From Gemmatimonadota bacterium (GTDB lineage Bacteria > Gemmatimonadota > Gemmatimonadetes > Gemmatimonadales > GWC2-71-9): a stretch of DNA of 44,696 nucleotides. Of this stretch, positions 28,371 to 35,142 are shown one piece after another. The notes below the pieces were generated by a model, which saw only the letters and a program-made list of their open reading frames with translations, did no database searches and had not been told where the DNA came from. The translations under genes and the position numbers were made by a program. The first letter of the stretch is position 1. Every line of letters starts with the position of its first letter. The stretch is taken from positions 1-44,696 of the forward strand of contig JAHECL010000007.1 of the NCBI GenBank assembly GCA_024641745.1. Direction: 5' to 3'.

Positions 28371-29621
28371 ATGTCCTCGAATTCCGGAAATCGCTGGGCC
28401 GGCATCACGCGCCCCTACACCGACGCCGACGTCGCCCGCCTCCGCGGCAGCGTCCGGGTGGAGCACACCCTCGCCCGGCTGGGCGCCGAGCGGCTCTGGC
28501 ACCTGATGCACACGACCGAGTACGTACAGTCGCTCGGCGCCGTGACCGGCAACCAGGCGATGCAGCAGGTGCGCGCGGGGCTGCCCGCCGTCTACTGCTC
28601 GGGGTGGCAGGTGGCAGCCGACGGGAACGACGCCTGCAGCATGTATCCCGACCAGAGCCTCTACCCGGCGCACTCGGTGCCGATGATGGTGCGGCGGATC
28701 AACAACGCCCTGCAGCGCGCCGACCAGATCGAGTGCGCCGAGGGAAAGCCGGGCAAGACCCACTGGTTCGCGCCGATCGTCGCGGATGCGGAGGCGGGGT
28801 TCGGCGGGGCCCTCAACGCCTTCGAACTGATGAAGGGGATGATCGAGGCGGGGGCGGCGGGGGTACATTTCGAGGACCAGCTGAGCTCCGAGAAGAAGTG
28901 CGGGCATCTGGGGGGCAAGGTGCTGGTACCGACGGGACAGTTCATCCGGACGCTGGTGGCGGCGCGGCTCGCCGCGGATGTGTCGGACGTGCCGACCATC
29001 CTCATCGCGCGCACCGACGCCGATTCGGCGACGCTGATCACGAGCGACGCCGATCCCCGCGACCGGCCCTTTATCAAGGACGAGCCCCGGACCCCGGAGG
29101 GATTCTTCCACATCCGGAACGGCGTCGAGATGGCCATCGCCCGGGCCTGCGCCTACGCCCCCTACGCCGACATGCTCTGGTGCGAGACCTCGACGCCGGA
29201 CCTGGAGGAGGCGCGGCAGTTCGCGGAGGGGGTGCATGCGAAGTATCCCGGCAAGCTCCTGACCTACAACTGCAGCCCGTCATTTAATTGGGAGAAGCAT
29301 CTCGACAAGCCGACCATTGCAAAGTTCCAGCGGGAGCTGGCGAGGATGGGGTACAAGTTCCAGTTCGTGACCCTGGCGGGGTTCCACGCCATCAACCACT
29401 CGATGTACGAGCTGGCGCGGGAGTACAGGGAACGGGCGATGACGGCCTACTCGGAGCTCCAGCAGGCGGAGTTCGCCTCGGAGGTACACGGCTACACCGC
29501 CACCAGGCACCAGCGCGAGGTGGGAGCCGGCTACTTCGACGCGGTGGCGCAGGTGGTATCGGCGGGCCAGAGCTCGACGCTGGCCCTGGAGGGGAGCACG
29601 GAGACGGCGCAGTTCGCCTGA
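28371..29621 (+). CDS. aceA: Isocitrate lyase
   Basis: Splits isocitrate to glyoxylate and succinate; with malate synthase it lets the cell grow on acetate, fatty acids and other C2-yielding substrates. The product has 416 residues (E. coli 434). The catalytic loop KKCGHLGGK is intact with Cys177, and the Mg2+/substrate residues are in [10 protein letters not shown] and GVHFEDQL. This distinguishes it from 2-methylisocitrate lyase, which is shorter (about 295 residues). GAGAG precedes the ATG. A strong hairpin follows the stop at 29651. Confidence 0.97.
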
Positions 29622-29822: not shown

Positions 29823-32672
29823 TCAGGGGCCGGTGGCACCGAGCTGGTCCAGGCGATCCCTCGCGTGCCTCACCCTCGGCTGGAGCTTCGGGTCGGCGTT
29901 GGCCCAGGAGCGTGGAACGATGCGGTAGTGCAGCACCGCGCTGTCCACCCGCCCAGCCTGGTCATACGCATCAGCCAGGAGATCGTGCAGCTCGGTCCTC
30001 GTCACGTAGAAGTTTGACGCATCCAGGGCACAACGCAGTGCGGCGCCTACGATCGGGACCGCGTCGGCTGGCCGCCCTTGCCGCAGCAAGGACCGCCCAA
30101 GTTCAAGATTGACCCTCGTGAAGCCGCAATTCGGCGAATGTATTGCGTCCCGCAGGTGCTCCACCGCCGCTGCATCCCGCCCGCGTGCCACTTCGGCCAG
30201 CCCGCGCACATAGTGATGCAGCCGCTGGTCGCGTCCATACAGGCTCCGCGCACCGAGCGCCTCAATGGTGTCCGCCAGCGCCAGCAGGCGGGTGGTGTCA
30301 CCAAGCGCAGCCAGGCTGGTCGCCATCTGGGCCAGCCACCACGCACGCTGCCCGGAACCGGGCTGGCGGTCCGTGGGCGCACCCGCCATGTCGCTGAATA
30401 ATTTGGCGGCGCGGCGATGATCGCCCAATTCCTGGTACGCGAGCCCCTCGAGGTAGGCCTCGGCGTGCCATGTCGTGTCCGGGTCTCTGCCCGACGACGG
30501 CCACCACCCATCCACCACGGCCTGCACCACCTCCCGTTGACGCCCCTGGTTCCGCAGCGCGATGAGCCTGAGCCAACGCCAGCGAGTCAGCATGTCCGGC
30601 GCGGCGGGTACCGGCCGCCTCGCCAACAGCCGGTCTGCCCCAGCCGGGTCGCCGGACCGCAACATCAGTTCCTCCGTCATGAGCCCCTGGGGCTGAGGCA
30701 ATTCCGCGGCGGCGGCCAGCGCAGCCTCGAAGTGTACGACCTCCTCGGCTCGCGCCTGCGCGTTCAGGACGGCGATCAGGTCGCGGAGGATCATCCCGTT
30801 GCGGGGATGCTGGCCAAGTGCGGCCCGCAGCGCCCGCTCTGCCGCGGGAAGCGAGTCCATCCACGCATAGGAGGTGGAGAGCAGCCAGACAGCTCCGCAC
30901 TCTGCGCAGGCACGCCAGGCGGTGGATTCTGTGGATTCGTCCCCCTCCAACAATCGCAGGGCGTGCCGGGCCTCGGCGATCGCGGCGACGAATCGCCCTT
31001 CCGTCAAGTACACCTGACCCGCGAGGACGTGTGCCTGCGCATGCGAGGGAAAGAGGCGCACCGCGCTGTCCGCATAGTCCGCCGCGACAAGCGCACGATT
31101 GTGGGACATCTCGAAATAGCCGAGGATGTAGAGTCGTTCCTCCATCGGTGCGGTACTCGCCGCGCGGACGGCCCGGGTCAGCAGTACCGATCGTTCAGGC
31201 AAGTCGAGGAGCTGTGCGGTGTGCCAGGCCCAGAACGCCGCCACGGCAAAGCTCGAGTCTGCATCGGAGGCGGCCGACAGCATGCGGTACGCACCGAGGA
31301 GGTCGCCTCGCTCCATGAGGCGCATCCCGTTGTGATAGAACGAGATGGCTTCCCAGGAGGCAGACCCCATGACCGGCACCCGCTCGGTGGGGGGGGGAAG
31401 CCCGATGCCGACGGCGACTGCCCTCGTGGCCGAGTCCACCAGCGAGAGAAGATCAGGCGCGCGAACCGAAGTGACGAACCTGATCCTCCCGGAATGAACA
31501 TCGGTGAGGGTCAGGCGGAGGTCGAATCCACCAGTGCCAGCCCGGCTCAGCATCCCCTCCAGCAGGTCCGTGGCGCCGGCCGACGCGGCGGCGCCGATCC
31601 ATCCCGTCGTGCCGCGCGCGACGGCTTCGTCCAGCCACCGGTGCGACACGACTCCGGCGCCGGAGAACCGGCCCGTGGCCATCTCCAACGCCTGTGCAAG
31701 CAGCGGCCCGAGGGTGTCGGCCGGACTCGCCCCGGCCTCGCGGACCGCACCGATCACGAGAATCGGCTGTGGGTCGCGGGCCCGGCCTGTCCGGAGCACC
31801 AGCGACAGGGTGGCAGCCGCTCCCACGAGGAGAAGCGCGGCGGCCGCCGGCCAGCGGGCTGCACGAAGCCAAGTGGCGGGTTCGGCGCTCGGCAGCGGCG
31901 GATTGATCCCGGCGGCTGCAGGATGGTCCGGCGGAGGGCCGGCAGGAGGGGGCGGTGCCGTAATGGTCTGGGTTACGGCCCGGAGTCGGGCCAGATGCCC
32001 GAGCACCGACTCGGGCGGCTCCATGTCCAGTTCTGCGCCGAGTGCCGCCACGTGCCGCTGAAGGGCCTGGAGTGCGCTGACCGGCGCGTGGTGCTCCTCG
32101 AGCGCAGTCATGAGCGCCACGGCATACGGCGTCGAGAAGCGGTCAAGCCGGACCAATTCGCTGGCGATGTCGAGGCGCGCCTCCACCCCGTCGGCCATGC
32201 GCAAGGCGCGTTCGAGCGCGCTGGTGAGTTGTCGCAGCACTCCAGTCCGCGTCTGCTCGACCCACTCCTCAAATTCGCCGTGTCCCGAAAGGTGGAACCC
32301 GTCGAGGAATGGGCCGCGGTAATTCGACGCCGCGAAGAGCACGTCTCCGCGGGCCAAGGCACCGCGAAGGTCCTGGAGATCCGATGAAATCTCGTGGGGT
32401 GCAAGGACGAGATTCATCGCCCCGGTGACCAGCGATCCCGCCGCCAGGTCCTTCCGCAAGGCGTAAATGGTCTGGTTGAGGGAGTGGCGGGCGTGCGGAG
32501 AATCGCTGTCGGGCCAGAGGTAGGCGATCACCCGGTCGCGCGAGACCCCGCCTGGCGGACTGGCGGCGACGAGGGCCAGCAGCGCCAGGGGAAGCCGGCC
32601 GGCGTTCTCGCCGGTCAGCGTGCCGTTGGGCCCTTCCAGGCAGAGGGGGCCCAGTGTGCGGAGCATCAACAT
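29823..32672 (-). CDS. Membrane-anchored BTAD (SARP-like) transcriptional regulator with TPR-like C-terminus
   Basis: A protein of 949 residues. About 1-100 is an OmpR-like winged-helix DNA-binding domain as in SARPs (RVIAYLWPDSDSPHARHSL...ALRKDL). About 105-235 is the BTAD helical domain (FEEWVEQTRTGVLRQL, ALQALQRHVAALGAELDMEP). A Pro-rich linker (238-265) leads to one membrane helix (about 274-293), and the remaining 650 residues are outside, made of helical TPR-like repeats (ALRMLEGDES-, AERALRAALGQHPRNG-type units). The topology resembles ToxR/CadC: DNA binding in the cytoplasm, sensing outside. ATG 32672 is chosen because AAGGTGGG lies 4 bases upstream; an earlier ATG would add a non-conserved piece. 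It is divergent from two repeat lipoproteins, with SARP-like repeats between. Target genes and signal are inferred. Confidence 0.85.
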   Translation of the reverse strand: MLMLRTLGPLCLEGPNGTLTGENAGRLPLALLALVAASPPGGVSRDRVIAYLWPDSDSPHARHSLNQTIYALRKDLAAGSLVTGAMNLVLAPHEISSDLQDLRGALARGDVLFAASNYRGPFLDGFHLSGHGEFEEWVEQTRTGVLRQLTSALERALRMADGVEARLDIASELVRLDRFSTPYAVALMTALEEHHAPVSALQALQRHVAALGAELDMEPPESVLGHLARLRAVTQTITAPPPPAGPPPDHPAAAGINPPLPSAEPATWLRAARWPAAAALLLVGAAATLSLVLRTGRARDPQPILVIGAVREAGASPADTLGPLLAQALEMATGRFSGAGVVSHRWLDEAVARGTTGWIGAAASAGATDLLEGMLSRAGTGGFDLRLTLTDVHSGRIRFVTSVRAPDLLSLVDSATRAVAVGIGLPPPTERVPVMGSASWEAISFYHNGMRLMERGDLLGAYRMLSAASDADSSFAVAAFWAWHTAQLLDLPERSVLLTRAVRAASTAPMEERLYILGYFEMSHNRALVAADYADSAVRLFPSHAQAHVLAGQVYLTEGRFVAAIAEARHALRLLEGDESTESTAWRACAECGAVWLLSTSYAWMDSLPAAERALRAALGQHPRNGMILRDLIAVLNAQARAEEVVHFEAALAAAAELPQPQGLMTEELMLRSGDPAGADRLLARRPVPAAPDMLTRWRWLRLIALRNQGRQREVVQAVVDGWWPSSGRDPDTTWHAEAYLEGLAYQELGDHRRAAKLFSDMAGAPTDRQPGSGQRAWWLAQMATSLAALGDTTRLLALADTIEALGARSLYGRDQRLHHYVRGLAEVARGRDAAAVEHLRDAIHSPNCGFTRVNLELGRSLLRQGRPADAVPIVGAALRCALDASNFYVTRTELHDLLADAYDQAGRVDSAVLHYRIVPRSWANADPKLQPRVRHARDRLDQLGATGP

Positions 32673-32690
32673 GCGACCCACCTTCAGGGA

Positions 32691-32718
32691 CCTGACTGGG
32701 CCTGACTGGTACCTGACC
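32691..32718 (+). promoter_or_regulatory. Three phased CCTGAC direct repeats, candidate BTAD/SARP operator
   Basis: CCTGACT at 32691, CCTGACT at 32701 and CCTGACC at 32712 are spaced 10 and 11 bases, so they lie on one face of the helix. SARP regulators bind heptamer direct repeats at about 11-base intervals, the last one about 8 bases before the -10 box. Here CAATTT at 32728-32733 begins 9 bases after the last repeat, pointing to control of the plus-strand lipoprotein genes. The same repeats sit 18 bases upstream of the regulator start, so self-control is also possible. Confidence 0.55.
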
Positions 32719-32765
32719 GTGTCTCCCCAATTTGCCTCTTCACGGCAGAACTGCAATGGCGAGGA

Positions 32766-32800: not shown

Positions 32801-33883
32801 ATGAACAAGCCCACGCGTTGGTCTATCCTGGCGGTGCTGCCGATCCTGGCGGCGTGCAGGGAGTCCCCTACCGGAAACGCCGACAGCATTGATCCCCTCT
32901 TCAAGCCCGCGCCCGCGGGGCCAGGCTACGCCGTGGTCGTCCCTCCGGTCACACCGGGCTATGCCGCCTTCATGCCCACAGACATCAACGCGCATCACGT
33001 CGCGATCGGCGTCATGAACCCGGCAGGCACCACCGGTCCGTCCTTTCGGCAGGGAGCCTACTGGAAGGCGGATGCCGGTGGCCCGCCGCAACTGTTGCCG
33101 CTCGGTTCCCATGCGGGCCCTGGCATCCCGACCGACATCGCGGACGATGGCGTGATCGGGGGCAACATCGGTCGCGCAGCCGTCCTGTGGCGGCCGGTTG
33201 GGGCGGTCTGGGAACTGGTCACGCTGCACGCCGATGCCCGCGTCAATGGTGTCGGGACCGGCGGCCGTGCGGTCGGTGCGCTGTACAACCCGGCGTACGT
33301 CTGGCAGGAGAATCCCCAGCCGGTGCTGTGGGATGCGGACGGTGCGGCGCAGACCCTGCCGCTGCCCAGTTCAGGGGAGTTCAACGGCGGCGAGGCCCAT
33401 GCAATCAGCTCCGGGGGCGACATCGCAGGTGAGGTACAGGTCTGGACACTCGGGGTGTGGTACTCGTGGGGCGCGGTCTGGATCCGACGGGAAGACGGGA
33501 GCTACGGAGAACCGATCGTGTTTCAGGGAGGGCCGTCGCGCGGGATCTCCGAGCGCGCCGCCGCAGGGGCCCTCTTCGTGACGGCCGGAGGGGCGAACTC
33601 CTATCGACATCTGATGGTTCGGGACGCCAGCGGGAGCTGGGCGAAGGGGGACTCGTCTTCCATCGCAGGAACGGCCGAAGACATGAATGGGGCGGGCGAT
33701 CTCACGGGGACAGATCGCAGGAGCCGTTATCAGTCAGCCGGCACACCGTTCGTCGCCATGACATCGGGAGCCGTCATCAGCCTGCCGCTTCCCAAGAGCA
33801 GCACCGGGGTGGCCACCGGCCTCAGCACCGACGGCTGGGTCGCCGGACGCATCGAGCTGACCGGCGTCATCTGGAAGCGCTGA
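32801..33883 (+). CDS. HAF-like repeat lipoprotein 1
   Basis: Lipoprotein of 360 residues, starting at ATG 32801 with GGGGAGG 7 bases upstream. The leader MNKPTRWSILAVLPILAAC ends in a good lipobox (LAAC, Cys19). The mature part is a series of about six repeats of the form xDIxxxGVIGGxxxxxAVLW, for example TDIADDGVIGGNIGRAAVLW, AHAISSGGDIAGEVQVW and TGLSTDGWVAGRIELTGVIW. This is the HAF-type extracellular repeat pattern and suggests a beta-propeller. No enzyme residues are recognisable. The gene is followed after 53 bases by a similar gene and is divergent from the BTAD regulator. I infer a surface or envelope protein under that regulator. Confidence 0.82.
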   Translation: MNKPTRWSILAVLPILAACRESPTGNADSIDPLFKPAPAGPGYAVVVPPVTPGYAAFMPTDINAHHVAIGVMNPAGTTGPSFRQGAYWKADAGGPPQLLPLGSHAGPGIPTDIADDGVIGGNIGRAAVLWRPVGAVWELVTLHADARVNGVGTGGRAVGALYNPAYVWQENPQPVLWDADGAAQTLPLPSSGEFNGGEAHAISSGGDIAGEVQVWTLGVWYSWGAVWIRREDGSYGEPIVFQGGPSRGISERAAAGALFVTAGGANSYRHLMVRDASGSWAKGDSSSIAGTAEDMNGAGDLTGTDRRSRYQSAGTPFVAMTSGAVISLPLPKSSTGVATGLSTDGWVAGRIELTGVIWKR

Positions 33884-33936: not shown

Positions 33937-35142
33937 ATGACGTCCAACGCAGAATCAATTGCCCTCCGCTTCATCGGCCTCGCCCTGGCGGCGATGGTCG
34001 CCGGTTGCGGGTCGGATAGCGCAACGGGGACGATGGAGAGCCCAGCCCTGGCGAAGGGCGGGAAGCCCGGAGGAGGGACCACTACCACGATTCCCCAGGA
34101 AATGAAGCTGTCCAACCTGAGGGACCTGAAATGCAGCGGCATCATGCCGACCGCGATCAGCCGGGTCGCTGGCGACCGGGTGGTCGGCTACGGCTGGTGC
34201 GGATCGGGGACACAGCTATTCACCTGGACCGAGGCGGCCGGCCCCGCCCTGGTCGGCGGAGGATCGACCGAGGGCATGGCCAACGACGTGGCAGGTGATG
34301 GTACCCTCGTGGGACACGTCCGGGTGTCGGGCAATCTTCGGCCATTCGTGATTCCCGGCGGAAGTGGTCCGCCGGTACTGCTGCCCATGCTCCCCGGAGA
34401 CGGACCGAACGGCGACGCGACGGCAGTCAGTGACGACGGGCGGTACCTGGCCGGCACCACCTCCTCGGGCGGCGTGCTGTGGACCCGCCAGTCCGACGGC
34501 ACCTACTCCGGTCCCGAACTCATCGGCTCGGTGGGCCCGTCGGCGGTGAGCCTGGACGGTCAGGTCGTCATCGGCACCTCGGGGGATCGCGCCGTGCGCT
34601 GGGTGAAGCAGGGGTCGTGGAGCGTGACGTACCTGAAACAGGATGTCGCCGGTGAGCCGGTCTACGGAAGCTCGGCGGAGGCGGTCAACGCCCGGGGTGA
34701 TGTGATCGCGGGGAGTCGGGCCCTGCCGCTGGACGCCGACCCGGGCACACAATACTCGGAGCCCGTCGTCTGGCGACTCGTGGGAACGGAGTGGGTTCTC
34801 GAGCCATTGCGGGGGTTCACCTTCTCGGAAGGCGGCAGTCAGGATGTGGTCGACTACCACGGCAGCGTCGTGGTGGTGGGCGAGGCGTGGGAAGATGACC
34901 CGGGCAAGGGAGGAGTGCTTTGGCCCGTCGTCTGGACGTGGGATCGGACCCCGGCGAAGGCGTTCTGCCTCCCGCAGCGCCTGGCGATCATCTCGAAACA
35001 GGGATGGGGCGGGGGGAGCGCTGCGGGCGTGAGCGAAAGTGGTCGCATCGTCGGACGCGCCTGGACGAGTTCCGTCAGCAACTCTGGCTATCCCGTCACC
35101 TGGAGGCTGCCGGCCACCGCGCCGTGCCCGGGCGGCAGCTAG
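33937..35142 (+). CDS. HAF-like repeat lipoprotein 2
   Basis: Lipoprotein of 401 residues. ATG 33937 is chosen over an in-frame ATG at 33883 because GAAGGAG stands 6 bases in front of it and the leader then has normal length; the earlier ATG would overlap the upstream stop (TGATG) and cannot be excluded. The lipobox is VAGC (about Cys24). After a Gly/Lys/Thr-rich linker come about seven repeats such as ANDVAGDGTLVGHVRVSG, ATAVSDDGRYLAGTTSSGGVLW, AEAVNARGDVIAGSR and AAGVSESGRIVGRAW, again propeller-like. Two Cys (in DLKCSGIM and GWCGSG) may form a disulfide. It is a diverged tandem paralogue of the previous gene. Function unknown. Confidence 0.8.
   Translation: MTSNAESIALRFIGLALAAMVAGCGSDSATGTMESPALAKGGKPGGGTTTTIPQEMKLSNLRDLKCSGIMPTAISRVAGDRVVGYGWCGSGTQLFTWTEAAGPALVGGGSTEGMANDVAGDGTLVGHVRVSGNLRPFVIPGGSGPPVLLPMLPGDGPNGDATAVSDDGRYLAGTTSSGGVLWTRQSDGTYSGPELIGSVGPSAVSLDGQVVIGTSGDRAVRWVKQGSWSVTYLKQDVAGEPVYGSSAEAVNARGDVIAGSRALPLDADPGTQYSEPVVWRLVGTEWVLEPLRGFTFSEGGSQDVVDYHGSVVVVGEAWEDDPGKGGVLWPVVWTWDRTPAKAFCLPQRLAIISKQGWGGGSAAGVSESGRIVGRAWTSSVSNSGYPVTWRLPATAPCPGGS

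Follow-up and report, generated by a model that had tools for sequence, protein, structure and literature searches.

What do three short direct repeats do when they lie between the gene of a BTAD-type regulator and two divergent lipoprotein genes in a member of the Gemmatimonadota, a soil phylum that is mostly uncultured and mostly known from metagenomes? In the window (the whole stretch of 44,696 nucleotides that was analyzed) the forward strand reads CCTGACT at 32691–32697, CCTGACT again at 32701–32707 and CCTGACC at 32712–32718, with spacings of 10 and then 11, and 9 bases (32719–32727) separate the third heptamer from the hexamer CAATTT. The arrangement of the original prediction, three CCTGAC(T/C) repeats spaced by 10–11 and ending about 9 bases before CAATTT, is thus present at these coordinates. 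The features of the locus are collected in Table 1. Ten bp ahead of unit 1, at 32681–32688, there is also CCTTCAGG, which lacks the TGA core and may be a degenerate fourth unit.

Table 1. Predicted features of the locus, in window coordinates.
Feature	Position	Strand	Description	Basis
Regulator gene	29823..32672	-	949 aa: winged helix and BTAD (~1-240), predicted TM (~275-293), alpha/beta domain, TPR superhelix	
Operator unit 1 (putative)	32691..32698	+	CCTGACTG, 8-bp recognition unit	Sequence; unit limits from within-operator agreement, 62 operators
Operator unit 2 (putative)	32701..32708	+	CCTGACTG	Sequence; within-operator agreement
Operator unit 3 (putative)	32712..32719	+	CCTGACCG, 8 bp short of -10	Sequence; within-operator agreement; +14 offset
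-10, divergent lipoprotein promoter (predicted)	32728..32733	+	CAATTT; no -35 expected on this strand	Fits family-wide +14; weak in sequence
-10, regulator's own promoter (predicted)	32729..32734	-	CAAATT; overlaps divergent -10	Sequence; -35/-10 conserved on regulator's strand in relatives
-35, regulator's own promoter (predicted)	32751..32756	-	TTGCAG; 16-bp spacer	Sequence; family-wide TTG at +41 to +43
Predicted target 1	32801..33883	+	Lipoprotein, lipobox LAAC, GGAGG ribosome-binding site, HAF-like repeats by eye	
Predicted target 2	33938..35142	+	Second lipoprotein, HAF-like repeats by eye; probably one operon with target 1	

That the triple is a chance or low-complexity repeat without function is extremely improbable, even if short repeats are frequent in GC-rich genomes. 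The phased pair CCTGACY-N3,4-CCTGACY appeared in none of 100 dinucleotide shuffles of the window, and the phased-triple score of the window (21.5) was reached by 0 of 1020 shuffles and by 1 of 455 control stretches, taken from DNA further upstream of homologous genes. The same repeats scattered at random positions over the genome would speak against a regulatory site. A genome-wide search allowing no mismatch found the exact triple only once in the 2.67 Mb, at up to 3 mismatches there were only three further matches, all of them weak, and a search with 11/11 spacing gave no more matches than its reversed-pattern control. By these repeat searches no further target of the regulator rises above background elsewhere in its own genome, and the reading first proposed is left standing.

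The protein encoded beside the repeats had been taken for a BTAD regulator, and the comparisons made here bear this out. Pfam gave no BTAD call when the full-length regulator was scanned, but the isolated N-terminal domain scores above the BTAD cut-off (Trans_reg_C, with an E value of 6e-4, stays below its own). The profiles of EmbR and AfsR match over the whole of this domain, with EmbR as the best whole-domain sequence match, and a Foldseek search with the AlphaFold model of the N-terminal part (mean pLDDT 91.7) retrieved AfsR and EmbR as the only structures at E<=0.001. The winged helix also has a weak sequence match to regulators of the ToxR/CadC type. For the C-terminal part the fold search returned generic TPR superhelices only. 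Hydropathy reaches 2.12 over residues 275–293, a predicted transmembrane segment that has counterparts in 45 of 70 homologous regulators, and the protein is predicted to be membrane-anchored; transmembrane and signal predictions were made here by hydropathy and pattern only. An isocitrate-lyase-like gene, recognized by eye from its translation, adjoins the 3′ end of the regulator gene (28371–29621, forward strand) and has no evident link to it.

We have oriented 100 homologues of the same family and compared their upstream DNA. Hexamer autocorrelation over the first 90 upstream bp of 72 homologues gave a peak at lag 11 (198 over a background of ~20–40), and again at lag 22, while the lag-11 peak was absent 300 bp further up from the same 72 genes. 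Peaks were present too in a second subfamily (28 genes). A phased-triple score of at least 17 was found at 54% of the loci and at 37% of those in an independent set of named genomes, almost entirely Gemmatimonadota, vs. 0.4% in controls and 0.4% in shuffles. About half of the homologues remain below the operator threshold, some of them with degenerate repeats and some inside operons. The spacing is 11/11 in 56 of 62 other operators and 10/11 in the window. The repeat sequence itself varies from gene to gene (GTGATT, TTGACC, GTGAGC, CTAACG, CGAGAG, etc.), and it is this conservation of geometry with differing sequence that led us to reject a chance repeat. The full protein had no match at E<=1e-30 in the other two genomes of its genus.

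Two further observations concern the distribution of the family. In a second BTAD subfamily, recognizable by the motif RGFHRRD (L113–L128), the first 100 bp upstream carry 11-bp phased units of GTNAC type, frequently alternating between GTGAC and GTCAC and located farther from the start codon. Close homologues, mostly with the same operator, are also found on MAG contigs labelled Eisenbacteria, Chloroflexi and “Terrabacteria ANGP1” (L131, L137, L141, L143, L167, L168, L170), which may be either mis-binned Gemmatimonadota or cases of gene transfer.

The position of the repeats relative to the promoters was studied by aligning the loci on the last repeat alone, without any promoter element as anchor. 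T+14, A+15 and T+19 were found in 27, 31, and 29 of 39 aligned loci and make up a -10 for the divergent direction. In the same alignment CAA at +41 to +43 recurs across the family; read on the regulator's strand, it is the TTG of a -35 that a spacer of 17 bp separates from its -10. A strict TANNNT occurs exactly +14 from the T of the last unit in 37 of the 62 non-redundant operators, compared with 0.12 expected per offset, and one turn later in 5 of them; in the window CAATTT takes exactly this +14 position relative to the T in unit 3. A -35 match, defined as at least 3 of 6 bases with a spacer of 16–18, appears on the divergent strand in only 15% of cases, compared to 37% in control DNA and 73% on the regulator's strand. 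Over the 62 operators, agreement among the units of an operator is confined to columns -2 to +5; it extends beyond the TGA core and holds at columns that were not used in finding the units (z 5.5, 5.6, and 2.5), indicating that the unit comprises 8 bp of each 11-bp period and stops 8 bp short of the -10. Measured in the window, this last distance is 8 bp from the 8-bp unit and 9 from the heptamer. The SARP-type geometry originally proposed for a single locus is therefore recovered in many relatives: 11-bp phasing, a -10 locked in place, a divergent strand without -35 and an 8-bp unit.

The -10 element is in addition nearly palindromic in the family, as far as sequence symmetry alone can tell, with the full TANNNTA present in 28 of 62 operators besides the frequent A+15 and T+19. 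In the window CAATTT doubles as the complement of the -10 of the BTAD gene, so that one promoter region is probably shared by both strands and the operator would also span the start of the regulator's transcript. This position invites the alternative that the repeats serve only to block the regulator's own promoter, the divergent gene being unaffected or affected incidentally. The repeats would lie at ~+1 to +35 of the regulator's transcript, directly after its -10, and the better promoter, with both -35 and -10, is the one on the regulator's strand. Pure autorepression does not account, however, for a distance between the last repeat and the divergent -10 that is locked to the base, nor for repeats standing precisely where the divergent promoter lacks its -35; the N-terminal fold, moreover, is that of activators.

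The genes on the other side of the repeats also weigh against it, since operators accompany divergent genes and are absent where the neighbour is co-directional. Operator loci with a divergent neighbour were 50 vs. 3 as called (Fisher p 0.014). The automatic calls of neighbour direction had misjudged several loci, and eleven scored as unclear or co-directional were inspected: most of those that bear an operator turned out to have a divergent exported ORF, and loci within co-directional operons had no operator. A signal-like N-terminus was found in 36 of 49 divergent products vs. 9 of 45 control genes, and a lipobox in 20 and 5 of these same sets, respectively. On balance, we regard autorepression as the sole role of the repeats as unlikely. 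In the window, the neighbours had been described as HAF lipoproteins. The lipobox LAAC agrees with the lipoprotein assignment, but the HAF part could not be confirmed, the lipoprotein having no Pfam or NCBIfam match to this family at E<=1 and its repeats being HAF-like by eye alone. At one of the related loci (L168, 14–180 upstream of the BTAD gene) the operator and -10 are intact and the divergent gene is seemingly shortened compared with its relative at L170, possibly a decaying target.

The original prediction had offered the repeats as a link between the regulator and its target, and the regulator side of this link gains support from covariation across relatives. Operators resemble each other more closely the higher the identity between the recognition helices (rho 0.39, or 0.35 once BTAD similarity is removed, a result reached in 0 of 1000 permutations), compared to a rho of 0.10 for the flanking DNA of the -10/-35 spacer. 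Among ~1540 residue-by-position tests, 3 exceeded z 6.5, all of them in the recognition helix alpha-3; the BTAD domain, with 882 tests, gave none. The coupled pairs are residue 70 and position 1, residue 67 and position 0, and residue 66 and position 3. With Q67 the base is T in 52/52 cases, and with D67 it is another base in 5/5; Y70 is paired with G in all 45 scored cases, H or F at this residue often with A; the base is C in 17/17 cases with K/R66 and G in 7/7 with E/D66. On a tree of the BTAD domain the coupled characters change 4 to 16 times, a modest number of events that nevertheless indicates that more than a single lineage underlies the coupling. If the proteins are aligned on the conserved L-R-K register, residue 67 would be the counterpart of the base-contacting T88 of AfsR (PMC10936776). 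This covariation supports the view that the recognition helix reads the repeats.

It also speaks against another factor, for instance a response regulator of the PhoB/OmpR type, binding the repeats with the adjacent BTAD gene as its target. Response regulators of the OmpR type bind head-to-tail 11-bp repeats too, and the known SARP repeats differ in sequence (TCGAG, CGTTCATCG). Yet the repeat sequence changes by locus, tracking the recognition helix of the adjacent protein, and the repeat array of the window has no second copy in its genome, where the box of a common regulon would recur. A foreign factor was rejected on conservation and covariation, and we consider it very improbable.

Our preferred reading, to which we give a probability of roughly 0.78, is that the repeats form an operator at which the adjacent regulator, a membrane-tethered activator of SARP type, binds and controls the divergent lipoprotein operon. 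What has been read from the sequence is the geometry, its conservation, the protein-DNA covariation, the divergent exported neighbour and the fold; from these we infer binding, activation, autorepression and topology. The regulator would consist of an OmpR-like winged helix and a BTAD, one transmembrane helix after the BTAD and an extracytoplasmic TPR part. One protomer would sit on each repeat, side by side in successive major grooves, and the bound protomers would substitute for the missing -35, docking sigma region 4 of RNA polymerase beside the weak -10 CAATTT, with the outcome that both lipoprotein genes are switched on. The near-palindromic -10 would be common to this promoter and to that of the regulator with its own -35/-10, and the occupied operator, overlying the start of the regulator's transcript, would probably cause self-repression. 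With a shared -10 and an operator over the transcript start, the regulator should reduce its own production when it activates the divergent genes. Against this reading stand the weak -10 of the window and its 10/11 spacing, and an autorepressor would suit the same site.

Considering the whole family, it seems somewhat probable that the Gemmatimonadota possess a large set of membrane-anchored regulators of SARP type, each connected to one divergent exported-protein operon by a phased operator of its own and by a symmetric -10 that both promoters use, working as self-limiting sense-and-express modules with a recognition code at residues 66, 67, and 70. Very probably, a promoter design known from the antibiotic regulators of Streptomyces is widely used in this phylum to control exported proteins, with the repeats as the place where the adjacent regulator docks. 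A 2024 review places SARPs exclusively in actinobacteria (PMC10972967), and among the papers that we searched for SARP or BTAD proteins of the Gemmatimonadota none describes such regulators. The original prediction that the arrangement occurs in an unrelated phylum extends well beyond this locus, as fold, repeat phasing, -10 distance and missing -35 all recur in Gemmatimonadota. This would be a complete SARP-type arrangement in another phylum and serving another purpose. For many unannotated genes of soil bacteria it suggests concretely which regulator may act on which target, the residue-base couplings are candidates for a recognition code of the BTAD class, and the shared -10 would be an example from nature of a bidirectional promoter governed by an activator.

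The closest known systems are the SARPs (AfsR, ActII-ORF4, DnrI, PimR), which share the fold of winged helix plus BTAD. Their 11-bp direct repeats, with 8 of 11 bp specific, are located 8 bp from a poor -10 and replace the -35 (PMC10936776, PMC10972967). The contacts of AfsR fall on the leading 8 bp of every 11, SARP repeats stop 8 bp ahead of the -10 (PMC10936776), and 10-bp units are known for PimR (PMC10972967). The regulator and its putative operator have all the SARP traits that were checked, an N-terminal wHTH-BTAD, direct repeats of ~11 bp, the distance to the -10 with the -35 replaced and, as judged by covariation, a recognition helix that reads the repeats. In the strict sense of an actinobacterial regulator of an antibiotic cluster they do not belong there, because the host is one of the Gemmatimonadota and the divergent neighbours are lipoprotein or exported-protein genes. 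Other differences are the predicted membrane anchor, the TGA core instead of TCGAG or GTTCA, and a single private operator beside the regulator gene with an exported lipoprotein gene as predicted target. The known SARP repeats differ among themselves as well, reading GTTCA toward the -10 for AfsR and TCGAG for ActII-ORF4. EmbR of Mycobacterium tuberculosis is alike in N-terminal fold and in whole-domain sequence match but ends in a phosphopeptide-binding FHA domain, where the window regulator continues with the predicted transmembrane helix and the TPR part. ToxR and CadC also have a winged helix tethered to the membrane and an extracytoplasmic sensor part (predicted here by hydropathy), but theirs is a winged helix without BTAD, whereas here a BTAD follows it and the operator is of SARP type. 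Finally, the bidirectional promoters of E. coli have a near-palindromic -10 for both strands, a likeness that consists here of sequence symmetry only, and a factor that activates one of their two directions tends to be a repressor of the opposite one (PMC12825309); in the Gemmatimonadota, by contrast, the arrangement is a recurrent one within a regulator-target pair.
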